Source of the DNA: Rhabdothermincola salaria
Lineage (GTDB): Bacteria > Actinomycetota > Acidimicrobiia > Acidimicrobiales > Acidimicrobilacustridaceae
Assembly: GCF_021246445.1 (NCBI RefSeq)
Contig: NZ_JAJQXW010000001.1
Span: forward strand, 1,816,168-1,880,167
Direction of reading: 5' to 3'
Length of the DNA: 64,000 nt
Below are positions 3 to 14,672 of this stretch, piece by piece. The notes below the pieces were generated by a model, which saw nothing but the letters and a program-made list of their open reading frames with translations, searched no databases and was not told where the DNA came from. The position numbers and the translations under genes were made by a program. The first letter of the stretch is position 1; each line of letters opens with the position of its first letter.

Positions 3-2228
3 TTGGCCCTCCTGCGGCTCAAGCTGCTCTTCGACGCCTCCCGGCAGGCCGAACGGCACCTGGCCGGCTACCTCACCCTCCCTCTCACCGGGATGTCCAT
101 GAACCGACCCGACGGGCGGTGGCTGGAGGTCAACGACCGGTTGTGCGCCATCCTCGGTCGCCCTCGCGACGAGATGGTGACCCTGCGGTGGGCCGACCTC
201 ACCCATCCCGACGACATCCCGGCATCGATCCAGGCCCATGATCGGCTCCGTCGGGGCGAGTCCGAGCTCGAGACGCTCGACAAGCGCTACCTGCGGCCCG
301 ACGGGAGCGCGGTGTGGTGCCGGGTGGGGCTCTCCGCCGTACGTGACCGACGCGGACGCCTCGACGCCGTCGTCACCGTGGTGGAGGACGTCGACGAGCG
401 CCACCGCGCCGCCGAGCGGCTGGCCCAGCACATGGCCTTCCAGGACCTCATCACCGAGGTGGCCGAGGAGCTGGTCGCCGTGCCGGCCGACGACCTCGAC
501 ACCACGGTCGAGCGAGCCCTGGCCCGGGTGGGCGGTCGTGCCGGCGCCGAGCACGTCTTCGTCGCCGCCGTCGACACCACCACCGAGCGCCCGCTCGTCT
601 TTCGCTGGGACGACCCCGCGGCCCACGCCGATGCCGAGCTGCTCCCTGATCCGGCCACGGCCTCCCAGGCCGCCCTCCGCGGGCGCAAGGGCCTCGACGC
701 CCTGATCGCCGAGGCCGAGAAGCACGGCTGGCGCTCGCTGGTGGTGCACCCGGTCGCCACCGAACCCCCGGTGGTGGGCCTGGCCGGCCTCGGCACCACG
801 AGCGGGGACCGGACCTGGGACGACGAGACCCTGGAGCTGGTGAACGGCCTGGCCGAGGTCATCGGCCGGGCGCTGGCCCGTCGGGCCTACGAGGTGGAGA
901 TCACCCACCAGGCCCTCCACGACGATCTCACCGGGTTGGCCAACCGGGTGCTGTTCCTCGATCGGCTGGCCACCGCCCTGCGCCAGGCCGAACGCCACCG
1001 CCGCTTCCCCAGCGTGCTCTACGTGGACCTCGACCGCTTCAAGGTGATCAACGACAGCCTCGGCCACGACGTCGGCGACCGCGTGCTGCGGGAGGTGGCC
1101 ACCCGGCTGGAGGCCTCGGTGCGGGCCGGCGACACCGCCGCCCGCCTCGGGGGCGACGAGTTCGCGGTGCTGTGCCTGCGCACCGACGACGACGAGGATC
1201 CCGAGACGGCCGCCGCCGAGATCTCCGGGCGCATCCTCGACGCCGTGGCCCGGCCGGTCGAGGTGGCGGGGCGGACTCTGGCCGTGTCGGCCAGTGTGGG
1301 CGTGGTGCACGCCACCCCCGGGGTCACGGCCGACACCATGCTGCGCGACGCCGACGTGGCCATGTACCGGGCCAAGGCGGCCGGGCGCAACCGCATCGAG
1401 ACCTTCACGTCGGCCATGCACGACGAGGCGGTGGCCCGTCTGGCTCTCGAGTCCGAGCTGCGCCGGGCGCTCGACGACGACCAGCTCGAGCTCCACTACC
1501 AGGTCGTGTACCGCATCGAGGACCGACGCCCGGTGGGCATCGAGGCCCTGGTGCGCTGGCGCCACCCGACGCGGGGTCTGCTGTTCCCCGGTCAGTTCCT
1601 CGAGGTGGCCGCCGACGCCGGCCTCGACGGCGAGCTCGACCGCCAGGTCCTGGCCGAGGCCACCCGCACCGCGGCGACGTGGCACCGAAGGGGGGTCGAG
1701 CTCCCGGTCTGGGTGAACATCAGCCCCGGCTTCGCCGGGCGTCCGGAGTTCGTCGACGGCGTGACGGAGGCGCTCACCGAGGCCGAGCTGCCGGCGACGG
1801 CGCTCGGCATCGAGATCACCGAGCGGGCCCTGATCGGCGATCTCACCCGCCTCACCGCCAGCCTGGGCCGCCTGCGCGCCCTGGGCGTCCACCTGGCCAT
1901 CGACGACTTCGGCACCGGCCTGCTGTCGCTGTCGCTGCTGCGGGACCTCCAGATCGAGGACCTCAAGGTGGACCGTGCGTTCATCGACAGCGTCACGGTC
2001 GGCGAGAACGACGGCGAGGTGGTGCGCAGCGTGGTGTCCCTGGCCCACAGCCTGGGTCTGAGCGTGGTGGCCGAGGGGACCGAGACCAGCGAGCAGCTCG
2101 CCGCCTTGACGGCCGCCGGCTGCGACCGGGCCCAGGGCTACCTGCTGGGCCGGCCGGTGCCCTTCGTCGAGCTCACCCTGGTGCAGCACCTCGAGATCCG
2201 CCCGGGGTCAACCGCACCCCGCGAGTGA
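3..2228 (+). CDS. PAS-GAF-GGDEF-EAL cyclic-di-GMP turnover protein (5' end probably outside window)
   Basis: Bifunctional-type cyclic-di-GMP enzyme. In the visible 741 residues a PAS domain (about 30-135) is followed by a GAF-like domain (about 150-295), a GGDEF diguanylate cyclase domain and an EAL phosphodiesterase domain. The GGDEF signature is intact at residues 383-387, with an RxxD product-inhibition site (RAGD) five residues before it. EAL is intact (E514), and the later EAL-domain signatures VNISP, EITE, DDFGTG, LKVDRAFI, a VAEGxE-like loop (VAEGTE) and the QGYLLGRP loop are present, so both activities look competent. No transmembrane segment is visible, but the gene begins at the window edge, so an N-terminal sensor or membrane part may be missing. 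Its 3' end overlaps the convergent SGNH hydrolase gene by 21 bases. Confidence 0.9.
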   Translation: MALLRLKLLFDASRQAERHLAGYLTLPLTGMSMNRPDGRWLEVNDRLCAILGRPRDEMVTLRWADLTHPDDIPASIQAHDRLRRGESELETLDKRYLRPDGSAVWCRVGLSAVRDRRGRLDAVVTVVEDVDERHRAAERLAQHMAFQDLITEVAEELVAVPADDLDTTVERALARVGGRAGAEHVFVAAVDTTTERPLVFRWDDPAAHADAELLPDPATASQAALRGRKGLDALIAEAEKHGWRSLVVHPVATEPPVVGLAGLGTTSGDRTWDDETLELVNGLAEVIGRALARRAYEVEITHQALHDDLTGLANRVLFLDRLATALRQAERHRRFPSVLYVDLDRFKVINDSLGHDVGDRVLREVATRLEASVRAGDTAARLGGDEFAVLCLRTDDDEDPETAAAEISGRILDAVARPVEVAGRTLAVSASVGVVHATPGVTADTMLRDADVAMYRAKAAGRNRIETFTSAMHDEAVARLALESELRRALDDDQLELHYQVVYRIEDRRPVGIEALVRWRHPTRGLLFPGQFLEVAADAGLDGELDRQVLAEATRTAATWHRRGVELPVWVNISPGFAGRPEFVDGVTEALTEAELPATALGIEITERALIGDLTRLTASLGRLRALGVHLAIDDFGTGLLSLSLLRDLQIEDLKVDRAFIDSVTVGENDGEVVRSVVSLAHSLGLSVVAEGTETSEQLAALTAAGCDRAQGYLLGRPVPFVELTLVQHLEIRPGSTAPRE

Positions 2229-2999
2229 TTCGGCGATGGCCTCGACCAGCACCTCGTCGCCGGCCGGGCTCGGGTGCACCTGGTCCTCGAGCAGGACCGG
2301 CTCGGAGCCGTCGGCCCGGCGCAGGATGTCGGCCCAGTCCACGACCCGGATCCTCGGGTCGGAGGCGGCGATCCCCCGCCAGGCGGCGTTGAGCGCCTCG
2401 GCCTCGGGCCAGCGCTCGATGCGACCCTCGTCGCGCCGGCGGTCGGTGACGGTGACCAGGTGCAGGCAGCGCGCGTCGGGATAGGCGGCCACGATCTCGG
2501 TGAGGGCGGCCGTCGATTCGTCGAGGGGGCGCAGGGAGGTCACGTCGTTGGTCCCCAGGTTGATCACCACCTGCTCGACGGGGGGTTCGGCGGCCGCCAC
2601 CTCGAGGGCACCGGCCACCTGCTCCCGCGTGGTGTTGCCCGGCACGGCGTGCAGGCGCAGCTCCCACCCGTCACCCAACCGCTCGTCGAACACGGCGGCG
2701 GCGCCGAAGAAGATCGAGTCGCCGATCAGGGCCAACGCCGGACGATCGCCGTCGGCGCCGAGCACGGTGACCGCACCATCGCCCTCCTCGCCCTCCGACG
2801 CGCCGGCCCCGCCCTCTGCGACGACGTCCGCGGCGACGTCGGCGGCCCCGGTCTCGCCCGCCGACGGTTCGGCCTCGTCGTCGCCGCCCACGACGGCGAC
2901 CCCCACCCAGATCACCACCAGCAGCGCCAACGCCCCGAGCAGGGCCAGCACCGGGGTCCGACGCGGTGGAGCGGACTCGGGGGGCGATCCGGGCGACAT
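2208..2999 (-). CDS. membrane-anchored SGNH/GDSL hydrolase
   Basis: A 263-residue predicted extracellular esterase/lipase of the SGNH family. A short cytoplasmic N-terminus is followed by one hydrophobic segment (about residues 17-38), then an acidic Ala/Gly/Glu-rich linker, then the SGNH domain. Block I is IGDSIFFG (nucleophile Ser), the Gly block is in VPGNTT, block III is NLGTND and the catalytic Asp/His are in DQVHPS near the end. The reading frame stays open for 1.2 kb upstream, but ATG at 2999 gives a normal signal-anchor and length. It is divergent from murT, 64 bases away. The substrate cannot be inferred; acyltransferase or esterase activity on cell-wall material is possible. Confidence 0.85.
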   Translation of the reverse strand: MSPGSPPESAPPRRTPVLALLGALALLVVIWVGVAVVGGDDEAEPSAGETGAADVAADVVAEGGAGASEGEEGDGAVTVLGADGDRPALALIGDSIFFGAAAVFDERLGDGWELRLHAVPGNTTREQVAGALEVAAAEPPVEQVVINLGTNDVTSLRPLDESTAALTEIVAAYPDARCLHLVTVTDRRRDEGRIERWPEAEALNAAWRGIAASDPRIRVVDWADILRRADGSEPVLLEDQVHPSPAGDEVLVEAIAESLAGCG

Positions 3000-3063
3000 G
3001 ACCCGACCACCGTACCGGCGGCGGCTCGGACCGGGCGGCGACGTCGGTACGATCGGCCCCGCC

Positions 3064-4416
3064 GTGACGCCCCCCGACTCCTCCCCCGCCGACCACGACC
3101 TCCTCTCCCCGCGTCCCTGGCGCACCCGCCTCGCCGTGGCGGTGAGCCGAGCCGTCGCCGGCGCGTCGCGGGCGGTGCACTTCGGTTCCGGATCGGTCAT
3201 CGGGGGGCGGGCCGCACTGGCGGTGGACCCGGCGCTGCTGGCCAACCTCACCGCCCGCCGCCCGGTCGCCCTGGTCAGCGCCACCAACGGCAAGACCACC
3301 ACCACCCGGCTGCTCAGCGCTGCGCTCGGCGTCGACCGACCGGTCGTGTCCAACGCGCTGGGCGCCAACATGACCCCGGGCATCGTCGCCGCCCTCGGTC
3401 CGGCCGACCCTCGGGCCACGGCCGTGCTGGAGGTCGACGAGCGCTGGCTCGAACAGGTCCTGGCCGACACCGGCGCGGCGACCGTGGTGCTGTTGAACCT
3501 GAGCCGCGACCAACTCGACCGCACCCAGGAGGTGCGCAAGCTGGCCGAGCGCTGGCGGCGGGCCCTCACCGCCACCCCGCCCCGGCGGGTCGTGGCCAAC
3601 GCCGACGACCCGCTCGTGACCTGGGCCGCCATGGCCGCCCCCGCCGTGGTGTGGGTGGGCACGGGCCAGGACTGGACGGCCGACGCCGCCGGCTGCCCGG
3701 CCTGCTCGGGCCGCATCGCCTTCGAGCCGGGGTCCTGGCACTGCACCGACTGCGCGCTGGCCCGCCCCGAGCCCGAGGTCACCGTGGCGCTGGCCGACGG
3801 GCCCGACCGCGACGAGGGCCAGGAACCCGCCGGCGGATCGGGTCGGGCGACCGCCATGGTGACCCTCCCCGCCGGCACCGTGCCCGTGCCGCTGGCGCTT
3901 CCCGGCCGGGTCAACCGTGTCAACGCCGCCTTCGCCCTGGCCGCGGCTACCGCCATGGGCGCCGATGCCCACCGGGCGGCGTCGGGGTTGGCGGCCGTCA
4001 CCGAGATCGCCGGGCGGTACCGCGTGGCCGACGTGGGCGGCACGTCGGTGCGCCTGGTCCTGGCCAAGAACCCCGCCGGGTGGCACGAGGCCCTCGACCT
4101 GTTGGCGCCCGCCCCCGCCCCGGTGGTGGTGGCCATCAACGCCCGCATCGCGGACGGCCACGACCCCTCGTGGCTGTGGGACGTGCCCTTCGAGCGCCTG
4201 GCCGGCCGCTTCGTGGTGGCCACCGGCGAACGCCGCCACGACCTGGCCGTGCGCCTGCGCTACGCCGACGTCGATCACCGCGTGGCCACCGACCTCGACG
4301 GCGCCGTCGCCGCCGTGCGGGCCCACACCGCGGCGCCCCTCGAGGGTGTCCTCGACGTGGCCGCCAACTACACCGCCTTCCAAGAGTTCCTCGAGCAGGT
4401 CGGAGGTCCGCGGTGA
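3064..4416 (+). CDS. murT: lipid II isoglutaminyl synthase, Mur ligase-like subunit MurT
   Basis: Activates the alpha-carboxyl of D-isoglutamate in lipid II with ATP so that GatD-delivered ammonia can amidate it. Of 450 residues, the central Mur-ligase domain has the P-loop SATNGKTTTT (K77). It carries the four-cysteine zinc ribbon typical of MurT (C211, C214, C227, C230) and ends in a MurT C-terminal (DUF1727-type) domain. GTG 3064 is chosen because the upstream in-frame ATG 2998 would overlap the divergent gene's start codon. A GGAGG ribosome site for gatD lies inside the 3' end, and the last four bases overlap gatD. The pair therefore looks translationally coupled, as is usual for this two-subunit enzyme. 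Confidence 0.93.
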   Translation: MTPPDSSPADHDLLSPRPWRTRLAVAVSRAVAGASRAVHFGSGSVIGGRAALAVDPALLANLTARRPVALVSATNGKTTTTRLLSAALGVDRPVVSNALGANMTPGIVAALGPADPRATAVLEVDERWLEQVLADTGAATVVLLNLSRDQLDRTQEVRKLAERWRRALTATPPRRVVANADDPLVTWAAMAAPAVVWVGTGQDWTADAAGCPACSGRIAFEPGSWHCTDCALARPEPEVTVALADGPDRDEGQEPAGGSGRATAMVTLPAGTVPVPLALPGRVNRVNAAFALAAATAMGADAHRAASGLAAVTEIAGRYRVADVGGTSVRLVLAKNPAGWHEALDLLAPAPAPVVVAINARIADGHDPSWLWDVPFERLAGRFVVATGERRHDLAVRLRYADVDHRVATDLDGAVAAVRAHTAAPLEGVLDVAANYTAFQEFLEQVGGPR

Positions 4417-5216
4417 ACGTGGCCGGCTCCTCCTCCCCCTCGGCGGTCCGCGTCGGCGTGCTGTTCCCCGATCTGCTGGGCACCTACGGCGACGGCGGCA
4501 ACGCCACGGTGCTCACCCAGCGCCTGCACTGGCGGGGCATCCCCACCGAGGTCGTCACCGTCGCCGGCGGCGACATCGCCCCGGACTCCTGCGACGTCTA
4601 CCTGGTCGGCGGCGGCGAGGACGGCCCCCAGACCCAGGCCGCCCGGGAGCTGATCGAGAGCCGGGCGCTGCACCGCGCCGTCGATCGCGGTGCGGCCGTG
4701 CTGGCCGTGTGCGCCGGCATGCAGATCCTCGGCCACCGCTTCCCCGACGCCACCGGCGCCGACCGCACCGGCCTGGGCCTGCTCGACTGCGAGACCGTGC
4801 GCGTCGACCGCCCGCGGGCCGTGGGCGAGCTGCTCACCCCCACCGCCGGCGTCACCGGGCCCGACGGCGTCCACCACGACCTCGGGGTGCTCACCGGCTT
4901 CGAGAACCACGCCGGGCGCACCGTGGTCGGCGGCGGGGCGCAACGGCTCGGCGCCGTCGAGGTGGGCGAGGGCAACGGCGACGGCAGCGAAGGGGTGGTC
5001 GTGGGCCGGGTGGTCGGCACCTACCTGCACGGACCGGTGCTGGCCCGCAACCCCCGCCTGGCCGACCTGTTGCTCGGGTGGGTCGTCGGCCCCGACGCCC
5101 TCGGCCCCCTCGACGACCACGAGGTGGAGGCCCTGCGGGCCGACCGGGTGCGCGCCGCCCGGGCCGGCGAGCTGGCCCCCCGCCGCTCCTGGCGCGACCT
5201 GCTGCGCCGTTCCTGA
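4413..5216 (+). CDS. gatD: lipid II isoglutaminyl synthase, glutamine amidotransferase subunit GatD
   Basis: Class I (CobB/CobQ-like) glutamine amidotransferase that hydrolyses glutamine and passes ammonia to MurT. Of 267 residues, the nucleophile is C100 in AVCAGMQILGH and the catalytic His is H206 in GTYLHGP. The N-terminus FPDLLGTYGDGGN is typical of GatD. GTG 4413 overlaps the murT stop as GTGA and is preceded by GGAGG at 4402-4406. The stop codon sits in the first of three 16-bp tandem repeats that run to the end of the convergent acyl-CoA synthetase gene. Confidence 0.93.
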   Translation: MNVAGSSSPSAVRVGVLFPDLLGTYGDGGNATVLTQRLHWRGIPTEVVTVAGGDIAPDSCDVYLVGGGEDGPQTQAARELIESRALHRAVDRGAAVLAVCAGMQILGHRFPDATGADRTGLGLLDCETVRVDRPRAVGELLTPTAGVTGPDGVHHDLGVLTGFENHAGRTVVGGGAQRLGAVEVGEGNGDGSEGVVVGRVVGTYLHGPVLARNPRLADLLLGWVVGPDALGPLDDHEVEALRADRVRAARAGELAPRRSWRDLLRRS

Positions 5217-5248
5217 GCTGCGCCGTTCCTGAGCTGCGCCGTTCCTCA
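5201..5248. repeat. 16-bp tandem triplication carrying the stop codons of two convergent genes
   Basis: Three head-to-tail copies of gctgcgccgttcctga at 5201-5216, 5217-5232 and 5233-5248; the third ends in tca instead of tga. Copy 1 contains the gatD stop and copy 3 the stop of the convergent acyl-CoA synthetase. Because 16 is not a multiple of three, forward TGA occurs in two frames. Flanking cctgctgcg (5198-5206) and cgcagcagg (5253-5261) can pair around the array, which could help termination. Confidence 0.85.
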
Positions 5249-7144
5249 GCGCCGCAGCAGGGGCGCCAGCTCGTCGAGGACGGTGGGATCGTCGATGGTG
5301 GAGGGCACGTCGACCTCGCGCCCGTCGGCGAGGGCCCGCATGGTGGCGCGCAGCACCTTGCCCGAGCGGGTCTTGGGCAACCGGGAGACCACGATCACCC
5401 GCTTGAACGAGGCCACCGCCCCGATCTCGTCGCGGACCAGGGCCACCAGCTCGGCCTCGATCCGGGCGGGGTCGACGTCGACGCCGGACTTGAGCACCAC
5501 CAGCCCCAACGGCAGCTGGCCCTTCAACTGGTCGGCCACACCGATCACGGCGCACTCGGCCACCATCGGGTGGGTGGCGAGGGTCTCCTCCATGCCCCCG
5601 GTGGAGAGCCGGTGACCGGCCACGTTGATCACGTCGTCGATGCGTCCCATCACGAAGAGGTAGCCGTCGGCGTCGAGGCGGCCCCCGTCGCCGGTGAGGT
5701 AGTAGCCCGGGAAACGTTCGAGGTACGACGACACGAAGCGGTCGTCGTCCTGCCAGAGGGTGGGGAGGCACCCCGGGGGCAGTGGCAACCGGATCACGAT
5801 GGCACCGTCCGTGCCCGGTGGCACCGGCCGGCCGTCGTCGTCGAGCACCTCCACCGCGTAGCCCGGCACCGCCTTGGTGGGCGACCCCGGCTTCACCGGC
5901 AACGGCTCGACCCCCAACAGCTGCGACGCCACCGCCCACCCCGTCTCGGTCTGCCACCAGTGGTCGATGACCGGCACCCCGAGCAGCTCGCCCGCCCAGG
6001 CCAGCGTGTCGGGGTCGGTGCGCTCGCCGGCGAGGAACAAGGCTCGTAGCCGGCTCAGGTCGTGCCCGCCCAGGTGGGCGCCGGCGGCGTCCTCCTTCTT
6101 GATGGCGCGCAGCGCGGTCGGGGCGGTGAACATCACGTCGACCCGGTGGTCGGCCACCACCCGCCAGAAGGCCCCCGGGTCGGGGGTCCCCACCGGCTTG
6201 CCCTCGTAGAGCACGGTGGTGCACCCCGACAACAGCGGGGCGTACACGATGTAGCTGTGGCCCACGACCCAGCCCACGTCGGACGCCGCCCAGAACGTCT
6301 CCCCCGGCGCCATGCCGTAGACGTGGCTCATGCTCCAGCGCAGCGCCACCGCGTGCCCGCCGTTGTCGCGGACCACCCCCTTGGGCTTGCCGGTGGTGCC
6401 CGAGGTGTAGAGCACGTAGAGGGGGTCGGTGGCGGCGACGGGCACGCACGGGTGGGGTTCGGCGCCGGGCACCACGTCGGCCCAGGCCAGGTCGCGGCCG
6501 GCGAGGAGCGAGGCCTCCACCTCGGGTCGCTGCACGATCACGCAGCGTTCGGGCCCGGCCGAACCGGCCAGGTCGAGCGCCCGGTCGAGCAGCGGCTTGT
6601 ACTCGATCACCCGGCTGCCCTCGATGCCGCAGCTGGCCGACACCACCACCTTGGGGCGGGCATCGGCGATGCGCACCGCCAACTCGTGGGCGGCGAAGCC
6701 ACCGAACACCACCGAGTGCACCGCACCGAGGCGGGCGCAGGCCAGCATGGCCACCACCGCCTCGGGGATCATGGGCATGTAGAGCACGACCCGGTCGCCG
6801 GCGGCGACACCGAGGGCGGCCAGCGCCCCGGCGGCGCGGGCCACCTCGTCGCGCAGCTCGGCGTAGGTGACGTGGCGGATCGTCGCGGTGACGGGGCTGT
6901 CGTAGGTGAGGGCGATCTGGTCGCCGCGCAACCGGTCGACGCCGTCGCCTCCGTCGACCCAACGGTCGAGGGCGTTGAAGCAGGTGTTCAGGCGACCGCC
7001 GACGAACCAGCGGGTGAACGGGGCGTCCGAGGCGTCGAGGACCTGATCGGGAGGGGTGTCCCAGTGGATGGCGGCGGCGGCGTCGCCCCAGAAGCCCTCG
7101 GGGTCGGCCAGGCTGGCGGCGTGGAGCTCGTCGAAGGTTCCCAT
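5246..7144 (-). CDS. prpE: propionyl-CoA synthetase-like AMP-forming acyl-CoA ligase
   Basis: Converts a short-chain acid (propionate or acetate) with ATP and CoA to acyl-CoA. The 632-residue length matches PrpE/Acs enzymes. AMP-binding motif YTSGTTGKPKGVV is present, followed by DNGGHAVALRWSM, which resembles PrpE rather than acetyl-CoA synthetase. The downstream block ASDVGWVVGHSYIVYAPL, the YLTGDGG motif and the C-terminal KTRSGKVLR lysine (site of acetylation control in this family) are intact. The start ATG 7144 gives the usual FDELHAASLADPEGFW N-terminus. No propionate catabolic operon surrounds it, so the physiological substrate remains inferred. Confidence 0.87.
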   Translation of the reverse strand: MGTFDELHAASLADPEGFWGDAAAAIHWDTPPDQVLDASDAPFTRWFVGGRLNTCFNALDRWVDGGDGVDRLRGDQIALTYDSPVTATIRHVTYAELRDEVARAAGALAALGVAAGDRVVLYMPMIPEAVVAMLACARLGAVHSVVFGGFAAHELAVRIADARPKVVVSASCGIEGSRVIEYKPLLDRALDLAGSAGPERCVIVQRPEVEASLLAGRDLAWADVVPGAEPHPCVPVAATDPLYVLYTSGTTGKPKGVVRDNGGHAVALRWSMSHVYGMAPGETFWAASDVGWVVGHSYIVYAPLLSGCTTVLYEGKPVGTPDPGAFWRVVADHRVDVMFTAPTALRAIKKEDAAGAHLGGHDLSRLRALFLAGERTDPDTLAWAGELLGVPVIDHWWQTETGWAVASQLLGVEPLPVKPGSPTKAVPGYAVEVLDDDGRPVPPGTDGAIVIRLPLPPGCLPTLWQDDDRFVSSYLERFPGYYLTGDGGRLDADGYLFVMGRIDDVINVAGHRLSTGGMEETLATHPMVAECAVIGVADQLKGQLPLGLVVLKSGVDVDPARIEAELVALVRDEIGAVASFKRVIVVSRLPKTRSGKVLRATMRALADGREVDVPSTIDDPTVLDELAPLLRR

Positions 7145-7259: not shown

Positions 7260-7754
7260 TCAGGCGAACGTGACGCTGGCCAGCACGGCGTTGACCTCGC
7301 GCACCAGCACGTTGCGGAGCCGGTGGCTGCCGATCACCACGTAGAGGCAGAAGGGCCGTCCCTCGGCGACGAAGAAGCGCTGGAGGCCGGCCTGGCCGGC
7401 GATGCCGCGCTGGAGGGTGTCGGGCGAGAAGTCGTCGCCGGCGAACGGCCACGGGATGGCCTGGCCGGCGAAGAGGGCCGTGGCCGCCTCCTCGACCGGG
7501 TGCTCGAGCAGCGAGATGAAGATCGCGCCCGACTCCATGAGCTCGACGGCACCGCCGCCGAAGTCGCCCCGCACCGGCGGCAGCCCGAAGTTGGCCACGT
7601 GGGCGATGGGCGGCACCGACTCGGCTCCGCCGAACGGGGCCAGCGTCTCCGGTGCCCGGGGGTCGGGCAGCGGGTCCGGGTCGCGGCGGTAGATCTGGGC
7701 GTCCCACCCGTTGGGTGGGGCGACGGTGAGGCCGTGGGCGGACAACGTCGGCAT
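7260..7754 (-). CDS. conserved-looking hypothetical protein (164 aa)
   Basis: No family recognised with certainty. The protein of 164 residues is soluble, with no signal peptide or membrane segment, and starts at ATG 7754 (MPTLSAHGLTVAPP). Pro-rich stretches (DPDPLPDPRAPETLAPF) precede a more compact C-terminal half with LLEHPVEEAATALF and a terminal beta-rich part (FCLYVVIGSHRLRN). It follows the mau-like operon on the same strand after 107 bases, so it could be its last gene or independent. Codon bias matches neighbouring genes. Confidence 0.7.
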   Translation of the reverse strand: MPTLSAHGLTVAPPNGWDAQIYRRDPDPLPDPRAPETLAPFGGAESVPPIAHVANFGLPPVRGDFGGGAVELMESGAIFISLLEHPVEEAATALFAGQAIPWPFAGDDFSPDTLQRGIAGQAGLQRFFVAEGRPFCLYVVIGSHRLRNVLVREVNAVLASVTFA

Positions 7755-7861
7755 GATCCGCCAGTCTGCCACCGAACGACCCGCCGGCGGGAGGCGGCGC
7801 CGGGGTCCGACGCCGACGCCGGCTGCGCGGGGAGGGGCCGCCCGCGTCGTCTCGGCCGGCC

Positions 7862-8461
7862 TCAGGCCAGGGTGACGGTGGCTCCGACCGCCACCACCAC
7901 GACGGCGAGGTCGCCGACCACGGTGGCCACCCGGGCCCACGAGGCCCGGGCCTGGAGGCGGCGGTGGAAGACCACGAGGGCGTCGGGGTCGTGCACCCCC
8001 CGGGCGGCCAGGATCGCCAGGCCGCGCACCAGACCGAAGGTCAGCCCGATCAGGCCCCCCAGCAGCCACGAACCCGACAGCAGGCAGGTCACGAAGACCA
8101 CGTAGACGAGCCCAGCGGTGACGATGGTGGTGAGTCCGGCACCGAGCTGGAGGCCGAACCCGCCGCCGTAGACCCAGCCCCGGTAGGAGGTCATCCAGTC
8201 CTCGTTGACCTGCCGGCCGTAGCGGGGCAGGGGCAGCCGACCCCCGGAGGCGTCGGCCGCGAGCGCACCGAGCGCCACCACGCCCACGACGACGGCGACG
8301 GCCACCTCTCCGATCCAGGCCACCAGCGGGGTGCCCACCAGGCCCAGGAGCGCGCCGAGCAGGGCGCCGCCGAGCGCCGACCCGAGGATGTGGGCGGTGA
8401 CGGTCAACCACCACCGTTGGGCTCGTCCCCGCTCACCGAGCGGAGTGATGCTCGAGAGCAT
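7862..8461 (-). CDS. polytopic membrane protein of the mau-like operon
   Basis: A 199-residue integral membrane protein with four or five hydrophobic segments (about residues 22-45, 50-70, 105-125, 128-150, 175-197) and a conserved-looking loop NEDWMTSYRGWVYGGGFGLQLG. It has a single Cys (in VTCLLSG), so it is not an obvious thiol carrier of the CcdA type. ATG 8461 is preceded by a GAGGGGAG ribosome site. It is the last clear member of a minus-strand set with MauE-like, MauA-like and MauD-like proteins. I infer a role in assembly or electron supply for that set; no reaction can be assigned. Confidence 0.8.
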   Translation of the reverse strand: MLSSITPLGERGRAQRWWLTVTAHILGSALGGALLGALLGLVGTPLVAWIGEVAVAVVVGVVALGALAADASGGRLPLPRYGRQVNEDWMTSYRGWVYGGGFGLQLGAGLTTIVTAGLVYVVFVTCLLSGSWLLGGLIGLTFGLVRGLAILAARGVHDPDALVVFHRRLQARASWARVATVVGDLAVVVVAVGATVTLA

Positions 8462-8470
8462 CGACTCCCC

Positions 8471-8545
8471 TCAGGGCGACCACGTGGAGCGGATGGCCCC
8501 GATGACGGCCGAGACCAGGCCGACGACGACCAGGGCGACGGGCAC
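8471..8545 (-). CDS. possible 24-aa single-span membrane peptide after the MauD-like gene
   Basis: In the same frame as the MauD-like gene, directly after its TAG stop (8549-8551), GTG 8545 opens 24 codons ending at TGA 8471. The peptide VPVALVVVGLVSAVIGAIRS plus four residues is one hydrophobic helix. Its stop overlaps the ribosome site of the next gene (GAGGGGAG), so it would be coupled to it. It may be a small accessory peptide, a C-terminal tail if TAG were read through, or chance. Confidence 0.3.
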   Translation of the reverse strand: MPVALVVVGLVSAVIGAIRSTWSP

Positions 8546-8548
8546 GGC

Positions 8549-9442
8549 CTACGGCAAGGGCGCGTCGCGGGCGTCGGGCCCGGCGGCGGCGTCGTCGTCG
8601 TCTCCGTCGGCGGGATCGTCGTCGGCGATCAGCTGGCTGGGATAGAGGCTGGGGTGGCCGGGGCCGATGCCGGCGGCGCGCAGGTCGCGGTCGGCCCGGG
8701 CGGTGCGCTCCGGGCCGGTGAGGCGGCCGGCGGGGGCCGAGCGGTGCAGCGACGAGCCGTCCACGTCGTGGCCGGCGTCGGCCGCGGCCTGACCCAGGAG
8801 GTTGGCCACCTGGGCCCAGGTGGCCGCCGCCCCTTCGCCGAGCACGGCTCCCGAGGGGCCGTCGACGAGGATGAAGTAGGGGTTGGCCGGCACGCCGTAC
8901 TCGTCGTACGCCGCACTCGACATGAGGGTGGTGACCCCCGTCGGGGCCAGGCCGGCCACCGCGCTCACGCTCTCGGCCTCGGGACCCTTGGTGACGACCA
9001 CCAGGCGGGTGTCGCGCCCGGGCAGTCGGGTGCCCTCGCCGTCGGCGAAGGCCTGCCAGAAGTCGGCGCAGGTGCCACAGCCGCTCGACAGGAACGCCAA
9101 CAAGGTGGTGTGGTCGGTGCCGACCACCCCCGCCACCGTGGCCGCCCCGTCGGGGGTGACGCCGGCGATGTCGTGGGCGTCGGTGCTCACCACGCCGGTC
9201 TGCGATCGCGGCTCGGGCACCCCGGGTCGGGTGCGGATCTCGACCGGAGAGCGCACCCCTCCCGTGGTGGACCCGGTGCCCGACGGGTCGGTGGGGTCGG
9301 CGCCGTCGGCACTCTCGTCGTAGATGCCGGCCCCGAGCTCGTGGAGGCGGCGCAGGATCTCGGCGTGGCTGCGCAGCAGCCCGACGACGAGCACCGCGAG
9401 GAGGGCCACCACGAGGGCCAACAGCACCACGACGACGGTCAC
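8549..9442 (-). CDS. MauD-like membrane-anchored thioredoxin-fold protein
   Basis: A 297-residue thiol-disulfide protein of the type that oxidises or isomerises disulfides of the methylamine dehydrogenase light chain. One N-terminal membrane anchor (residues 3-23) is followed by a Pro/Gly/Asp linker and a thioredoxin-like domain with active site SSGCGTCADFW (C122, C125) and the cis-Pro region VPANPYFILVDG. A charged tail rich in Asp ends the protein, longer than in typical MauD. GTG 9442 overlaps the preceding gene's stop as GTGA. Its place next to a 25-cysteine exported protein and a MauE-like protein makes a dedicated folding role the best inference. Confidence 0.85.
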   Translation of the reverse strand: MTVVVVLLALVVALLAVLVVGLLRSHAEILRRLHELGAGIYDESADGADPTDPSGTGSTTGGVRSPVEIRTRPGVPEPRSQTGVVSTDAHDIAGVTPDGAATVAGVVGTDHTTLLAFLSSGCGTCADFWQAFADGEGTRLPGRDTRLVVVTKGPEAESVSAVAGLAPTGVTTLMSSAAYDEYGVPANPYFILVDGPSGAVLGEGAAATWAQVANLLGQAAADAGHDVDGSSLHRSAPAGRLTGPERTARADRDLRAAGIGPGHPSLYPSQLIADDDPADGDDDDAAAGPDARDAPLP

Positions 9443-11595
9443 GAGACCCTCACCGAGCGGCAGGCCAGGAGCACGTTGTCGCCCCGGCCGCGGTTGATCA
9501 GGTACACGCAGACCGTCCGGGACCCGCGAGACGCCCCGACCGTGACGTCGAAGCCGTGTGACGGCCCGTACAGGGGATGGGCGGCGCCGACGTCGCTGCG
9601 GTTCTTCGATGCCGTGGCGACTCCCGCGCCGACACCGTCGACGTACACGTGCACGTCGATCGGTCCCGCGGTGTCGGGGTCGATGGCCCAGCCCTGCAGC
9701 CGGATGGTGCCGGACCCCCCTCTTGCCACGTCGAGAGACCCGAACGGCGAGCCGCCCACCAACACCGATCGACATCCGATCAGGCTGTTCGAACCGGGGC
9801 CGAGGTTGATGCCGTAGGCGCACACCGTCCGGAGCCCGGAGGAGGCCGGCAGCTCGGCCGAGAAGCCCCGCGCCGACCCGTACCCCGGGTAGGCCGCAGC
9901 CACGTCGGAGCGCCGGCGATCGGCCCGCAGGACGTGGCCGACGCCGTCGACGTACACGTGCACGTCGACGGGGTCGGAGCTGTCGGGGTCGAGGAGCCAA
10001 CCGGCGACGGCGATCTTGCCCGGTCCGGCGCGCACGACGTCGAGGGCACCGAAGGGTGCCCCGGAGAGCACGTTGACGGGCCGCACGGCGATCAAGGCGT
10101 TGGGGCCGGGGCGATCGTTGATGGCGTAGGCGACCAGCTCGTGGCTGCCCGGTGGGGCCGGCACCACGACATCGAAACCGTGGTTGGTGGAAGGGCTGGT
10201 CGAGCTCAGCGCGGGTCGGGGATCGTCGGCGAGCACCGCCAGGCCCTTGCCGGCCACGTAGAGGTGGACCTGGATGGGATCGGTGGTGTCGGGATCGCGC
10301 GCCCAGCCCCGCACCCGCAACCCACCCGGAGCCGGATCGACGCGCTCGACCGTCCCGATCGGGGTTCCCACTTCGATCGTCCGCGACCCGAGCAGCACGT
10401 TGCCCGACCCGCCCCCGACGTTGATGGCGTAGACGTCGACCCGGTGACGCCCCTGCGGGACGTCGATCGTGACCCGGAAGCCGTGGTCGGCGCCCATGCC
10501 GAAGGCGACGTCGAGGTCCGCACGGCGCCGGTCGGCGCGCACCGCCACGCCCTTGCCGGCCACGTACACGTGCACGTCGATGGGGTTCGTGGTGTCGGGA
10601 TCGATCGCCCACCCCTCGACGGTGACCTTGCCCGTTCCGACGGTCACGTTGTCGATGACCCCGAAGGGGTTGCGGCTCACGACGGTGCGGCAACCGATGA
10701 TGCCGTCGGAACCCGGGCCGATGTTGACCGCGACGGCGCAGACCTGGCGCTGGCCGCCCTGGGAGCCGGGCAGGACGACATCGAACCCGTGGTTGGGGCC
10801 CATGCCCGGGTGGGCGGCGGCGATGTCGGACCGAGGGCGGTCGGCGCGCACCACGGCGACGACCTCGCTGTTCATGATGAGCCGGACGTCGACGGAGGCG
10901 TTGGTGTCCCAGTCGATGGCCCACCCCTTGACGCGGATGCCCCCCGAGACCTCGGTGGCGGAGTCGATCTGGCCGGTCACCCCGTGCAGGCAGGAGCGGT
11001 CGTGGGTGGCGGTGGCGTTGTCGACGCGGATGGTGCCGGTGCAGGTGCCGTCGATCTCCCACGGCGCGATGCACGTGACGAGCCGGCAGATGATCGGACC
11101 CACGCACGCCACACCCTGGTTGCACTGGCCGTAGCGGAAGTTGGTGCAGCCGGCCTTGCGGTTGTTGCAGTCGCCGTTGGCGCACCCGCACCCGGTGCCC
11201 GAGCAGGAACCGCTGCACACGCCGCTGCCGCCGCACCCGCAGCCGTTGCAGGGCGCGTTGCAGTCCATGTAGTAGCGGGGGCCGCTGCAGAACCCGGTGC
11301 CGTCGACCTTCCACCAACCGGCGAGCAGCGAACCCGGAGGGCACTGGTTGCGACCGGTGAGGGTGCAGCAGAACTCGGTGTAGCCGTCGCAGCACAACGA
11401 GCCGCACGCGCAGGCCTGCCCCTGGCACGAGCACACCGCGGCGTAGGCGTCGGTGGGGGTGAGGGCATAGGAGACGGGATTGGCGGCGATGGCCGAGCCG
11501 ACCACCGCGCTGCGGGCGAAGAAGCCGCGGCGGCCCATTCGGGCGGAGAGGGCGCCGGCGACCTTGTCGACCAGCGTCGTGGTGGCACGGCTCAT
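9439..11595 (-). CDS. Tat-exported MauA-like cysteine-rich protein with five C-terminal repeats
   Basis: A 718-residue exported protein. Residues 1-52 form a twin-arginine signal (GRRGFF at 21-26, then a hydrophobic stretch). Residues 55-185 hold 25 cysteines and resemble the methylamine dehydrogenase light chain, including CPPGS (85-89), a following Trp pair (W94, W95) and the YYMDC block. The second TTQ-forming Trp of MauA is not found at the expected place. Five repeats of about 102 residues follow (about 206-310, 311-412, 413-514, 515-617, 618-718). Each has a GWAIDPDT-like motif, a PIDVHVYV-like strand and an HGF-like motif (RGF in repeat 4). Repeats 1, 4 and 5 have a paired Cys (C-x15-C). 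It is probably a surface protein; enzymatic activity is doubtful. Confidence 0.85.
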   Translation of the reverse strand: MSRATTTLVDKVAGALSARMGRRGFFARSAVVGSAIAANPVSYALTPTDAYAAVCSCQGQACACGSLCCDGYTEFCCTLTGRNQCPPGSLLAGWWKVDGTGFCSGPRYYMDCNAPCNGCGCGGSGVCSGSCSGTGCGCANGDCNNRKAGCTNFRYGQCNQGVACVGPIICRLVTCIAPWEIDGTCTGTIRVDNATATHDRSCLHGVTGQIDSATEVSGGIRVKGWAIDWDTNASVDVRLIMNSEVVAVVRADRPRSDIAAAHPGMGPNHGFDVVLPGSQGGQRQVCAVAVNIGPGSDGIIGCRTVVSRNPFGVIDNVTVGTGKVTVEGWAIDPDTTNPIDVHVYVAGKGVAVRADRRRADLDVAFGMGADHGFRVTIDVPQGRHRVDVYAINVGGGSGNVLLGSRTIEVGTPIGTVERVDPAPGGLRVRGWARDPDTTDPIQVHLYVAGKGLAVLADDPRPALSSTSPSTNHGFDVVVPAPPGSHELVAYAINDRPGPNALIAVRPVNVLSGAPFGALDVVRAGPGKIAVAGWLLDPDSSDPVDVHVYVDGVGHVLRADRRRSDVAAAYPGYGSARGFSAELPASSGLRTVCAYGINLGPGSNSLIGCRSVLVGGSPFGSLDVARGGSGTIRLQGWAIDPDTAGPIDVHVYVDGVGAGVATASKNRSDVGAAHPLYGPSHGFDVTVGASRGSRTVCVYLINRGRGDNVLLACRSVRVS

Positions 11596-11605
11596 GACGG
11601 TCGGC

Positions 11606-12220
11606 TCATGTGAGGGGGGCCTCCACGGAGAAGGAGCGAACGGGTCGGCCGGTCCCGGCGGAGCCGGGGGTGCGGCGGGCGGCGACGAGCGCCTCGGGCA
11701 GGGCGGTGAGCAGGGCGACCCCGAGGCCCACGGCGACGAACGACACCGACAGGTAGGCGACGCCGGCGGCGGGCAGGTCGGGGCGCATCTCGATGAAGCC
11801 CGGCGCCCCGGTGACCGCGGCGGAGACGGCGACGAGGGCGGCCGCCCCGTCGACGACGGCGTGCACCAGGGTGGGCGGGGCCGACGAGGCCCCGAAGCAG
11901 CCACAGGAGACGGCCGCCTCGCCCGCGGCACGCAGGCGCAGCACCGAGCCGGTGAAGACCACGAACAGCACCGCGGTGGCGGCCGCCAGCCACGGGCCGC
12001 CGAACAGGTAGGTGGCGACCCCGATGGCCACCTCGGCGGCGCCGAGGAGCCGGGCCAGGGCGGGTCGGGCGGGCAGGCGCAGGGCCTCGAGCATGGGCAC
12101 GGTGGCGGCCGGGGCGCGCAGCTTGGCCATCCCTCCCACGGCGAGAACGCCGGCCACGACCCCCAAGAGGCCTCCGAGCACCACGTCGGCCGATGGTAGT
12201 GCCGGTCGCCCGCAGTTCAC
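11606..12220 (-). CDS. MauE/DoxX-like redox-associated membrane protein
   Basis: A 204-residue membrane protein with four to five hydrophobic helices and the CxC motif SCGCFG (C106, C108) characteristic of MauE-like proteins, which are needed for maturation of the disulfide-rich methylamine dehydrogenase light chain. GTG 12220 is the likely start. It is the first gene of the mau-like set. The exported protein gene begins 10 bases after its stop, and the carboxyltransferase gene ends 50 bases upstream, so the set may be co-transcribed with it or use a promoter within that gap. A short cytosolic C-terminal tail (RRTPGSAGTGRP) ends the protein. Confidence 0.85.
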   Translation of the reverse strand: MNCGRPALPSADVVLGGLLGVVAGVLAVGGMAKLRAPAATVPMLEALRLPARPALARLLGAAEVAIGVATYLFGGPWLAAATAVLFVVFTGSVLRLRAAGEAAVSCGCFGASSAPPTLVHAVVDGAAALVAVSAAVTGAPGFIEMRPDLPAAGVAYLSVSFVAVGLGVALLTALPEALVAARRTPGSAGTGRPVRSFSVEAPLT

Positions 12221-12236
12221 CCGAGGGGGCGGGCGG

Positions 12237-12287
12237 TCAGGGGGTGATGACGGTCAGGCGGTGATGACGGTCAGGGGGTGATGGCGG
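12237..12287. repeat. 17-bp tandem triplication giving stop codons in all three minus frames
   Basis: Three adjacent copies at 12237-12253, 12254-12270 and 12271-12287 of tcagggggtgatgacgg (one mismatch each in copies 2 and 3). Each copy begins with tca, a TGA on the minus strand. Copy 3 holds the carboxyltransferase stop. As 17 is not divisible by three, the array supplies a minus-strand stop in every frame just upstream of the MauE-like gene. Confidence 0.85.
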
Positions 12288-13788
12288 TGCGCTGGACGGG
12301 TTCGGGCGGGGCCTGGCGACGCGACAGGGCCCGCCGGAGGGCGTCGAGCAGCACGGTGCGGGTCTCGCGCGGGTCGATGAGCTCGTCGAAGCCGAGGTTG
12401 GCGGCCGACCGGTACGAGGCCTCCAGCTCGGCCTCACGCAGCAGCGTGGCCTCGTCGACGTCGGCACCGGTGGCCCGGCTCATGGCCGCGGCACCCATGG
12501 CCCCGAGGGTGGCCCCGGGATAGGCGAAGGTGGCCGACTGGCCGTCGAAGCCGACCAGGGACATCACCATGGAACCGAAGCCGTAGGCCTTGCGCAGGGT
12601 GAGGTGCAGCTTGGGGCTGGTGGCCTGGGTCTGCGCCGCGAACATGCGCGCTCCGCTGCGCAGCACCCCGGCCCGCTCGGAGGCCCGCCCCGGGAGCATG
12701 CCCGGGTTGTCGGCCAGGAAGACCAGCGGCAGGTGGAAGGAGTCGGCCACGGAGATGAAGTGGGCGGCCTTGTCGGCGGCGTCGGCGTCGACCGACCCGG
12801 CCAGCACGCTGGGCTGGTTGGCCACGATGGCCACCGGATCGCCGCCGAGGTGGGCGAGGGCGCAGATGATGGACGGGCCGAAGCCGGGCTGGACCTCGAA
12901 CCAGTGGCCGTCGTCGACGACCACGTCGAGCACGTCGGCCATGTCGTAGACCCGCCGGGTGTCGCGGGGCACGATGCCGAGCAGCTCGTCGGTGGGCCTC
13001 GGCCCCTGGTCGCCGCCACCGACGCGGGGCGGGTGGCTCCAGGCGCTCGACGGGAAGAACTCGAGGTAGTGGCGCAGCATGTCGAGCGCCGAGGCGTCGT
13101 CCGGCGTGACGTTGTGGATGAGGCCGCTGGCCACGGCCACCGACGGCCCGCCCAGGTCCTCCTTGGAGATCTCCTCGCCGAGCGACTCCTTCACCACCGG
13201 TGGCCCGGCGGTGAACACCGCGCCGTCGGCGGTCATGACGCTGAAGTCGCTCATGGGCACGATGAGGGCACCGTGACCGGCCGAGGGGCCCATGACCGCG
13301 CTGAGCACCGGCACCCGTCCCGAGCACTGGGCCTGGATGAGCAGGTCGGTGGGGGCCCGGCCCCCTCCCCCGCCACCGCGGTGCCCGGCACCCTCCAACA
13401 ACATGAGCAGCGGCATGCGGTCACGCAGCGCCAGCTCGGCGATGCGATAGCGCTTGGAGCTGCTGCCCGGCCCGATCGAGCCGGCGAGGGTGGTGAAGTC
13501 CTCGGCCCCGACCATGACCGGGCGGCCGTCGATGCGGCCGGCGCCGGCCACGATGCCGTCGGACGCGATGGACTCGCCCACCAGCGTGCCGATCTCGCGG
13601 AAGGTGCCGGGGTCGAGCAGGTGCTCGACGCGCTGGCGGGCGTCCATGAGGCCGCGGGCGTGGCGCTTGGCCAACCGCTCCTCGCCGCCCATGGCCCGCG
13701 ACGCGGCTCGGCGCTGCGACAGGTCGGCCAGGGTCGGCCCCCACCCACCGGGCAGGTCGGGGGCCCCGGTGGCGTCGTCGGGGCTCAT
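12271..13788 (-). CDS. acyl-CoA carboxylase carboxyltransferase (beta) subunit
   Basis: Transfers CO2 from biotin carrier protein to an acyl-CoA (acetyl-, propionyl- or methylcrotonyl-type). The 505 residues form the crotonase-like double domain of the AccD/PccB/MccB family. The N-half oxyanion region includes VLSAVMGPSAGHGALIVP and the C-half includes FLADNPGMLPG and KLHLTLRKAYGFGSMVMS. A Gly-rich insertion (AGHRGGGGGGRAPTD) is unusual. ATG 13788 overlaps the upstream SDR stop by four bases, so the two are one operon. No biotin carboxylase is in the window, so substrate cannot be fixed. Its stop lies in a 17-bp tandem repeat. Confidence 0.88.
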   Translation of the reverse strand: MSPDDATGAPDLPGGWGPTLADLSQRRAASRAMGGEERLAKRHARGLMDARQRVEHLLDPGTFREIGTLVGESIASDGIVAGAGRIDGRPVMVGAEDFTTLAGSIGPGSSSKRYRIAELALRDRMPLLMLLEGAGHRGGGGGGRAPTDLLIQAQCSGRVPVLSAVMGPSAGHGALIVPMSDFSVMTADGAVFTAGPPVVKESLGEEISKEDLGGPSVAVASGLIHNVTPDDASALDMLRHYLEFFPSSAWSHPPRVGGGDQGPRPTDELLGIVPRDTRRVYDMADVLDVVVDDGHWFEVQPGFGPSIICALAHLGGDPVAIVANQPSVLAGSVDADAADKAAHFISVADSFHLPLVFLADNPGMLPGRASERAGVLRSGARMFAAQTQATSPKLHLTLRKAYGFGSMVMSLVGFDGQSATFAYPGATLGAMGAAAMSRATGADVDEATLLREAELEASYRSAANLGFDELIDPRETRTVLLDALRRALSRRQAPPEPVQRTAITP

Positions 13789-14672
13789 GCGTCGGCGGGG
13801 ACCGGGGTCTCGCCCTCGCCCGCGGCCTCGATCTCGGCTTCGACCTCTTCTTCGGCCTCCTCGGCGGCGGCGCTCACCGACTCCTGGCCGTCCGGGCGGG
13901 GCGGGCGCATGTCGGGGAAGGCCCGCAGGGTGTGCCCACCGTCGACGGTGAGGTGCTGGCCGGTGACCCAGCTCGACTCCGGCCCGGCCAGGTAGCGGAT
14001 GGCCTGGGCGATGTCGTCCGCCTCACCGCCGCGGGCGAGGGGTTGGTTGGCCAGGAAGGCCGCCATCATGTCGTCGTCGGCGAACAGACCGGTGGTGCTG
14101 GCGGTGCGGGTGAGCCCGGGACGCACCGAGTTCACCCGGATGCCCTCCTCGCCGAGCTCGTCGGCGGCCACCTCGACGAGCGCGTCGACGGCGGCCTTGC
14201 CGGTCTTGTACGAGGCCAGGCCCTTTGTGGAGAAGGCCGCGGCGGTGGACGACACGGCCACGATGGAGCCGCCGGGCGGCATCGCCGGCACGGCGTACTT
14301 GAGCAGGAGGAACACCGGGCGCACGTTGCGGTCGACCTCGGCACTGAACTGGTCGGGGTCGTAGTCGACGAGGCGGGAGGGGCTCCCTCCTCCGGGCACC
14401 GTCACCGCGATCTCGAGGCTGTCGCCGTCGGCCGCGAAGGCCACGGCATCGGCCACGTCCATGGGGCGCAGGGTGTCGCAGGGGCAGGGGTGCACCTCGA
14501 GGCCCTCGGCCGCCAGGACGCGCAGGGCGTCGACCAAGCGCTGCTCGTCGCGCCCGGCGATGGTGACCCGGCAGCCGTCGGCCGCCAGCAGGCGCGCCGT
14601 GGCCAGGCCGATACCGCTGCTGCCGCCGATCACCAGGGCGTGGGTGCCGTCGAGGGGTGCGTCGCTCGTCAT
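13785..14672 (-). CDS. short-chain dehydrogenase/reductase, with acidic C-terminal tail
   Basis: NAD(P)-dependent oxidoreductase of 295 residues. The cofactor loop GGSSGIGLATA (about 16-26), the VSSTAAA Ser region and the YKTGK catalytic Tyr/Lys are all present, with the usual C-terminal TGQHLTVDGG. After the normal SDR end come about 40 extra residues, very rich in Glu/Ala (EEAEEEVEAEIEAAGEG), with no obvious function. It is coupled to the carboxyltransferase gene by an ATGA overlap, suggesting a shared acyl-CoA pathway. Confidence 0.88.
   Translation of the reverse strand: MTSDAPLDGTHALVIGGSSGIGLATARLLAADGCRVTIAGRDEQRLVDALRVLAAEGLEVHPCPCDTLRPMDVADAVAFAADGDSLEIAVTVPGGGSPSRLVDYDPDQFSAEVDRNVRPVFLLLKYAVPAMPPGGSIVAVSSTAAAFSTKGLASYKTGKAAVDALVEVAADELGEEGIRVNSVRPGLTRTASTTGLFADDDMMAAFLANQPLARGGEADDIAQAIRYLAGPESSWVTGQHLTVDGGHTLRAFPDMRPPRPDGQESVSAAAEEAEEEVEAEIEAAGEGETPVPADA

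Follow-up and report, generated by a model that had tools for sequence, protein, structure and literature searches.

What do the maturation genes of a methylamine dehydrogenase (mau) operon do at a locus that holds no such dehydrogenase? The question is raised by five genes on the minus strand of a 64,000-nt stretch of DNA from Rhabdothermincola salaria (hereafter the window, whose positions are used as coordinates throughout). Positions 7260 to 12220 hold a cassette encoding a MauE-like protein, a Cys-rich protein with a twin-arginine translocation (Tat) signal, a MauD-like thioredoxin, a MauF-like membrane protein and a fifth protein, here termed G5. Comparison with related loci suggests that this MauF carries selenocysteine (Sec) at its redox position, and that this putative Sec-MauF acts in a module maturing the exported Cys-rich protein, a reading to which we give a probability of about 0.75. 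The features concerned, all on the minus strand, are the following.

11606..12220, minus strand: MauE-like membrane protein, 204 aa, GTG start, CxC motif
9439..11595, minus strand: Tat-signal Cys-rich protein, 718 aa; a Cys-rich head, then five GWAIDPDT-type repeats
8549..9442, minus strand: MauD-like thioredoxin, 297 aa, hydrophobic N-terminus, CxxC
7862..8545, minus strand: MauF-like membrane protein, 227 residues including a single predicted selenocysteine, GTG start at 8545
8471..8473, minus strand: in-frame TGA, predicted selenocysteine U25 in WSPUG, in a codon column of TGA and Cys codons only
8447..8462, minus strand: first hairpin, between the TGA and the SECIS-like hairpin, GATGCT/AGCATC
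8427..8445, minus strand: hairpin resembling a selenocysteine insertion sequence (SECIS), 8 bp with a GGU triloop that lies 33 nt behind the TGA
7260..7754, minus strand: G5, fifth cassette gene, 164 aa, PsbP/Mog1/LpqN-like predicted fold

A conserved cassette without MauB

The genes are tightly packed, the mauD GTG start overlapping the stop codon of the preceding gene (GTGA) and the mauF GTG start lying 3 nt behind the mauD stop. The original prediction had recognized four consecutive minus-strand genes in this order, all of which are real, as the maturation part of a mau system; the selenocysteine codon, the identity of MauF and the fifth gene were not part of it.

Relatives of the locus were collected by a contig scan with the Cys-rich head as query, and the best 80 of 83 were used. 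Most of these 80 loci are labelled as Acidimicrobiia or other Actinomycetota; the odd labels, namely, Acidobacteria (locus L025) and Thermoanaerobacterales (L017), perhaps reflect misbinning. Searching them with the window's own proteins (tblastn) located MauD in 75 loci, G5 in 71, MauE in 65 and the membrane gene in 60, with all five genes together in 46. Gene order varies among these 46 complete loci, E-A-D-F-G5 being the commonest (n=30). Some of the incomplete loci end at a contig edge, and in several mauF sits at a separate site of the genome. A profile search of further genomes found all five genes in 17 of 20 regions, and the other three each miss one gene: L111 and L126 begin at a contig end, and L108 has mauF on another contig. 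Since the five genes co-occur at this rate in both collections, the cassette is not a chance arrangement, and the expectation that the genes would be conserved together in relatives was borne out. At L118, a gap of about 1.3 kb separates the MauF-like and MauD frames, from position 11621 to 12943.

MauB (PF06433), the large subunit that the original prediction had found absent from the window, was detected in none of 41 cassette genomes, including our own, in a search where both plasmid controls (2/2) matched and which did not extend to MauG. Earlier scans also gave nothing in our own genome and nothing in 148 genomes of the class, no control having matched in either scan. The cassette is thus a MauD/MauE/MauF set without MauB, conserved as a unit, and its MauF-like gene is not part of a methylamine dehydrogenase operon in these 41 genomes.

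The mau operon of Paracoccus denitrificans (NC_008688.1, our L081) offers the closest comparison. Its mauF, mauE and mauD match the cassette genes by profile over most of each protein, and it too adjoins a small disulfide-rich protein with a Tat signal. In contrast, the cassette has no MauB, has an additional gene of PsbP/Mog1 fold, and carries TGA in mauF where P. denitrificans, with the MauF motif STWSPCG, has a Cys codon (TGC).

A predicted selenocysteine codon in mauF

Profile comparison (hhalign) aligned the MauF-like family with two annotated MauF, from Paracoccus and Indioceanicola, at 98.9% over 176 columns, versus 0.2% against MauE. In this alignment the MauF motif STWSPCG meets window sequence reading STWSP-TGA-G, a short way upstream of the start that had been called. 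By these comparisons the fourth cassette gene is a MauF homologue, with its predicted start upstream of the open reading frame (ORF) call. The "further membrane protein" first placed at 7862-8461 is real but too short, the gene spanning 7862-8545 through the TGA.

This TGA (8473-8471) falls exactly on the redox Cys position of the WSP(C/U)G motif. First, among 103 distinct sequences, including the window and a distant clade described below, the codon at this position is TGA in 73 and TGC or TGT in 30, and never any other; counted by locus, there are 75 TGA, 20 Cys and 4 cut off, some genomes entering twice and the two MauF being included. Second, upstream of the TGA the reading frame stays open over 20 codons in each of 57 distinct TGA loci, and the preceding W, S and P never vary (57/57), while the S and P codons change synonymously. 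Third, in the alignment with the two MauF, W, S, P, C/U and G are kept in 57/57 rows, a few of which are one genome twice; this is its single invariant Cys/Sec column. Alignment A4 of the MauF-like family holds 33 of 58 sequences. TGA serves as an ordinary stop elsewhere in the same operons, and thus the genetic code has not been reassigned; in the other cassette genes of the loci fetched, it is confined to the ends of the matched stretches or their vicinity. Taken with the hairpin and the genomic correlates presented below, these patterns strongly indicate that the TGA is read as selenocysteine, directed by the hairpin behind it. Gene callers that treat TGA as a stop would truncate such a Sec-MauF across a large phylum.

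Known families and collections contain little that resembles this protein. Sec-MauF has no match in NCBIfam at E values up to 10 and a weak match to DsbD_2, below the cut-off; a plasmid collection returned nothing for the window's protein, and one known MauF when a distant MauF was the query. No report of a Sec MauF was found among the matches listed in the literature searched, whose coverage leaves out most subscription journals. Table 1 of a 2026 review, which holds 119 selenoprotein families, has no MauF-like or WSPUG family (PMC13188914). The review also lists TsoB (NF045694), a selenoprotein resembling a rhodanese/DsbD fusion (PMC13188914). TsoB and the putative Sec-MauF are alike in being operon-encoded selenoproteins with a DsbD-like part; they differ in that TsoB has two Sec, a UxxxxU motif and the rhodanese fusion. 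The cassette would add to the selenoproteins a predicted family of integral-membrane proteins with a single Sec.

A SECIS-like hairpin behind the TGA

According to the review, bacterial SECIS elements have a loop of 3-9 nt with a G within its first two positions, 16-37 nt behind the UGA (PMC13188914). We tightened these constraints by demanding a stem of at least 6 bp with 4 G-C pairs. Such a hairpin was found in 55 of 58 TGA loci and in 3 of 15 Cys loci, and synonymous shuffles contained one in 28% of cases for the TGA loci and 20% for the Cys loci. Its position is fixed, namely, 33 nt with a GGN triloop (45 loci) or 29 nt with GGUC (10 loci). Of the 12 TGA loci of the distant clade whose sequence was read, 9 share the 33-nt spacing, with different stem letters and a GUC, GUU or GUG loop. 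In a second set, 12 of 13 TGA loci, one of them (L189) of cassette type, have such a hairpin.

Covariation was assessed on 52 sequences, 43 of cassette type and 9 distant; neither the 29-nt group nor six other distant loci were included. On these sequences RNAalifold drew two hairpins unprompted. By counting, 94.1% of cells were paired; compensating double changes amounted to 66 cells, against 16.2 in shuffled alignments and 3-18 when the structure was slid. An example is the exchange of CUC-GAG for UUC-GAA, in which a Leu-to-Phe change is paired with a synonymous Glu change. The first hairpin is paired in 99.0% of its cells, with a C-G to G-C exchange in 9 sequences.

Selenocysteine machinery and the codon state

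The R. salaria genome encodes selA (G000:C4:200365-201537), with selB adjoining, and on contig C2 a tRNA-Sec, confirmed as tRNA-SeC by ARAGORN. We then compared the codon state of mauF with the presence of this machinery in two sets of 42 genomes each. In the first set, selA scored over its cut-off in 27/27 TGA genomes, 1/10 Cys genomes and 1/5 genomes without a nearby mauF; the corresponding figures were 26/27, 1/10 and 1/5 for selB, and 24/27, 1/10 and 1/5 for a tRNA-Sec at 58 bits or more. The five genomes without a nearby mauF carry the gene elsewhere, with no TGA (sequence read for three). In the second set, selA was matched in 37/37 TGA genomes and 1/5 Cys genomes. Over the cut-off were 35 of these 37; in the other two, selA is split in two (G168) or lies at a contig end (G330). 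Combined, SelA was matched in 63/63 TGA genomes, 61 over the cut-off, versus 3/20 Cys genomes. Here G083 and the genome of L027, taken as identical from their matching coordinates and scores, count only once; five distant TGA genomes (G291, G349, G225, G163, G371) and the Cys genomes of L022 and L080 were scored by the stops inside the match, with the sequence unread.

At one locus the association is physical: at L109, from the same genome as L027, genes for tRNA-SeC, SelD (1.2e-106), SelA (7.4e-135) and a SelB-like protein (1.6e-59) directly adjoin the cassette, at 962-5710. In genome G226, some 0.8 kb separate selA from the head. The arrangement at L109 suggests that MauF may rank among the chief reasons such genomes retain Sec, and more widely Sec-MauF would be one possible reason why these genomes retain a costly Sec machinery.

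On the MauF tree, the 26 cassette-type Cys rows group as a single clade (98), though their heads are scattered; the trees come from a "quick" method and include several long branches. The heads nearest to that of the window (L001, L002 and G035) come from genomes with no selA match, in which a Cys mauF of that clade lies away from the cassette (L190, L193 and, for G035, L168). It looks as if a Sec mauF was displaced by a Cys gene when Sec was lost. Together with several candidate clients, such natural Sec/Cys pairs make the function of MauD, MauE and MauF directly testable.

The exported Cys-rich protein

The Cys-rich head spans residues 53-205 (about 10981-11439) and holds 26 of the 32 Cys of the whole protein; the repeat cores lie at residues 224, 328, 430, 532 and 635. 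A twin Arg is present in 81/81 heads (the 80 loci and the window), and W94 and W95 are kept in 101/101 head rows, which include one genome twice (G083 and the genome of L027). Alignments A1, A2 and A5 hold 22, 50 and 53 rows, respectively, out of 81 heads. Neither the protein nor its repeats matched a Pfam family, at E values up to 1 for the protein. Among 53 members, the C-terminal parts include FG-GAP (4), ricin-type lectin (3), SLH (2), DUF4214 (1), Big_7 (1) and DUF5818 (1) domains, and four heads are stand-alone proteins. Four heads had been flagged as having one TGA inside; Sec in these was rejected, the TGA being the natural stop. A fifth head flagged with a TGA inside is found at G117:C57:11178-11801.

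This protein had been described as Tat-exported, MauA-like and with 25 Cys; the Tat signal and approximate Cys count stood, and the MauA assignment failed at the level of sequence. PF02975 (MauA) matched 0/22 members at E values up to 10 and 0/53 at up to 0.001, with a real MauA matching at 2e-53 as a control. Searches with phmmer and hmmsearch against solved structures gave chance-level matches only, and hhalign with one MauA failed. Against five MauA, the mature head scored 18.9, a value exceeded by 3 of 60 column shuffles (maximum 25.6); a score of 91.8% for the head including its Tat signal came from the signal region only. A structural model of the head (pLDDT, predicted local distance difference test, 79) gave nothing of note in Foldseek, with no methylamine dehydrogenase chain listed. 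When VIA-align was run on Foldseek's 122 chains, four reached Z 2, all of them light chains of methylamine dehydrogenase (MADH) or aromatic amine dehydrogenase (AADH), weak matches with Z 2.5-2.6 over 67-78 residues. This modelled fold, the one comparison pointing that way, hints at a weak kinship of the head to MauA. The MauA/AauB light chains and the head are alike in their Tat-type signal and many Cys, and by the weak structural match may resemble each other in fold. They differ in that the head has no sequence family match, no partner Trp for a tryptophan tryptophylquinone (TTQ), 26 Cys and variable C-terminal domains.

MauE, MauD and G5

The MauE-like protein, originally described by its CxC, is confirmed by PF07291 (E 2.4e-13, 50.9 bits, curated cut-off 27), by a family comparison with MauE (hhalign, 96.1% over 146 columns) and by the CxC itself, present in 65/65 family members. 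The MauD-like protein scored 16.6 bits with TIGR02661, the MauD model of NCBIfam, under the cut-off of 188.6, and had no Pfam match at E values up to 1. At the level of families, its predicted identity as a MauD-like CxxC thioredoxin held, with 98.1% over 181 columns against five real MauD (hhalign), CxxC in 74/74 members and the context S[GS]CxxC in 56/74.

G5 matched no Pfam or NCBIfam family, and no signal peptide was seen by eye; alignment A3 holds 53 of 71 sequences. Its model (pLDDT 92.7) matched Tsi3 (VIA-align Z 7.5), LpqN (6.2), PsbP (6.0) and EagT6 (5.1), and G5 thus shares a predicted fold, of DUF1795 type, with PsbP, Mog1, LpqN and EagT6. It is unlike these in lacking a sequence family match and in being linked to a Tat-exported Cys-rich client. 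Profiles found the head in 21 of 296 genomes of the phylum and, as a single copy each, in 51 of 247 genomes of the class. A twenty-second phylum genome listed, G075, was dropped, its match covering the Tat stretch only, and the class count likewise leaves it out. G5 is likewise present in 51 of the 247 class genomes, 50 of which have both genes; G144 has the head without G5, and G072 has G5, as a partial match, without the head.

A proposed thiol/selenol relay and its alternatives

We propose that Sec would be inserted at the TGA of mauF, directed by the hairpin just behind it, and that MauD (thioredoxin, CxxC), MauE (CxC) and Sec-MauF may work together at the membrane as a short thiol/selenol relay. 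CcdA/DsbD thiol carriers have an SPC motif, matched by SP(C/U) in the cassette MauF. They have two redox Cys, whereas the cassette MauF has one invariant Cys/Sec, here predicted to be Sec, and is thus not an ordinary two-Cys CcdA. The relay would most likely supply electrons in a CcdA/DsbD-like manner, MauD then acting as a disulfide isomerase on the 26-Cys head; taken alone, the reductive direction is a guess that we hold little better than even. G5, apparently cytoplasmic, could hold the head before Tat export, a chaperone role considered because of its strict link to the head and the Eag-type chaperones of the same fold; G5 goes with the head, not with the distant clients described below. 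Once matured, the head may be a compact scaffold from which a variable C-terminal part, made of repeats or lectin-like domains, is displayed extracellularly. The idea that the mau maturation set is reused for a repeat-bearing protein is therefore kept in part: MauD, MauE and MauF lie, without MauB, beside a Tat-exported Cys-rich repeat protein, but this client is not MauA by sequence. The genes mauD, mauE and mauF would thereby gain a role separable from methylamine dehydrogenase. One study notes that peptide clusters of Streptomyces contain mauE and mauD but no other mau genes (PMC7794033).

Several observations weigh against this reading. MauF has a single Cys/Sec, and the direction of electron flow is guessed. 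Three of the 58 TGA loci have no hairpin within the tightened constraints, and in the second set 5 of 10 Cys loci do have one, though at other positions. For the window alone, the minimum-energy fold differs and does not contain the SECIS-like hairpin (z -1.6), 14 of 200 shuffles fold equally well, and Rfam gave one chance-level match on 8200-8600 and nothing above. Three TGA genomes (L023, L029, L031) have no tRNA-Sec over the cut-off, and four genomes without TGA or selA have weak matches over it; the tRNA model also matches other tRNAs, which makes it a noisy correlate. The SelB-like protein of the L109/L027 genome scores below the selB cut-off. The MauF tree shows 2 changes of codon state and the head tree 7, of which well supported branches force 2. 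With so few changes, the associations between codon and SelA are not phylogenetically independent and Fisher values are only descriptive; independent pairs on the trees are too few for significance. Finally, the fold matches of G5 stay below Z 8.

The alternative that survives best keeps the same core, namely a Sec-MauF with an exported Cys-rich client, and has it serve as an oxidase system for disulfide formation, in metal delivery, or in protecting the client from oxidation. MauF, with one Cys/Sec, is unlike a two-Cys CcdA, and one report mentions the speculation that MauE acts in disulfide formation of the MADH beta subunit (PMC7794033). We nevertheless hold this family of roles rather unlikely, MauF being grouped with CcdA/DsbD by its motif, if with a DsbD_2 match below the cut-off. 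CcdA/DsbD systems are reducing, which counts against an oxidase; the sequence itself decides neither redox direction.

Considerably less probable is that the head is a redox enzyme with a new Trp-derived cofactor at W94-W95, built by the operon as mau genes build TTQ. The invariance of both Trp, the fact that the head model's top four structural matches are all MADH/AADH light chains, and a non-significant hhalign alignment placing CPPGT..W at the quinone Trp of MauA speak for it. However, no Trp occurs within 24 residues of FRYGxC in 101/101 rows, where the TTQ partner site would lie by a correspondence taken from that non-significant alignment. Neither MauB, in the 41 cassette genomes, nor a recognizable cofactor-making enzyme in the cassette was seen, and an adjacent Trp pair may be merely structural.

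That the TGA is an ordinary stop, with the gene starting at ATG 8461 and the upstream similarity a decayed remnant or chance, seems very improbable. There is indeed an ATG four codons behind the TGA, at which mechanical ORF calling begins; against this, the WSP before the TGA is kept throughout with synonymous changes, the TGA is replaced by Cys codons and never by TAA, TAG or others, and MauF has the same motif as the sequence before the TGA. Lastly, a true methylamine dehydrogenase operon with its remaining genes elsewhere has next to no chance of being correct, since MauD, MauE and MauF homologues are present by profile comparison but PF06433 is missing from the 41 cassette and 148 class genomes scanned, with controls matching for the former, and the TTQ residues from the head.

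A wider module around distant MauF

We return to the reading of Sec-MauF as part of a client-maturing module, since the MauF profile reaches beyond the cassette, to 50 of the 296 phylum genomes versus the 21 with a head. Of 20 regions around MauF (19 of them distant), 15 contain MauE and 11 contain MauD at E 1e-3, and NCBIfam adds one more MauD, at L172 (9.2e-26, below the model cut-off); G5 and the head were found in none of the 20. The codon is TGA in 15 of 19 distant MauF. Within 4 kb of 15 of the 19 distant loci lies a Tat-signal protein with 10 Cys (CGHTYTTGSCPHP...GGGWSRCC...DCCS...VFCI), located as follows.

L175:8343-8873; L169-L173, L176-L181, L184, L185, L187: 10-Cys Tat family loci, beside MauF, mostly TGA

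Neither Pfam nor NCBIfam matched the L175 member. A third Cys-rich Tat type, fused to a long C-terminal part, lies close to the Sec-MauF of a divergent clade, at L182:7215-8645 and, in L183, near 6954; a pattern search found no Tat Cys-rich protein within 4 kb at L174 and L186. Read by eye, the pattern W..CC...DCC is common to the 10-Cys family and MauA. It is tempting to speculate that Sec-MauF, MauD and MauE make up a general pathway of Actinomycetota for selenium-dependent extracytoplasmic maturation, serving three or more families of Tat-exported Cys-rich clients from one MauA-fold ancestor, MADH maturation in Pseudomonadota being a specialised Cys-only offshoot; this extension is tentative and, to us, somewhat doubtful.

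Repeats of the type GYWLVASDGGIFAFGDA are fused to heads such as those at L049, L059 and L076, and form a separate protein at L182:5380-6234, near a distant Sec-MauF.

Genes flanking the cassette

The flanks, at 5246-7144 and 12271-14672, hold genes named by eye: carboxyltransferase- and SDR-like genes on one side of the cassette and, adjoining it on the other, an acyl-CoA/acetyl-CoA synthetase-like gene, which is kept in L001 and L002.

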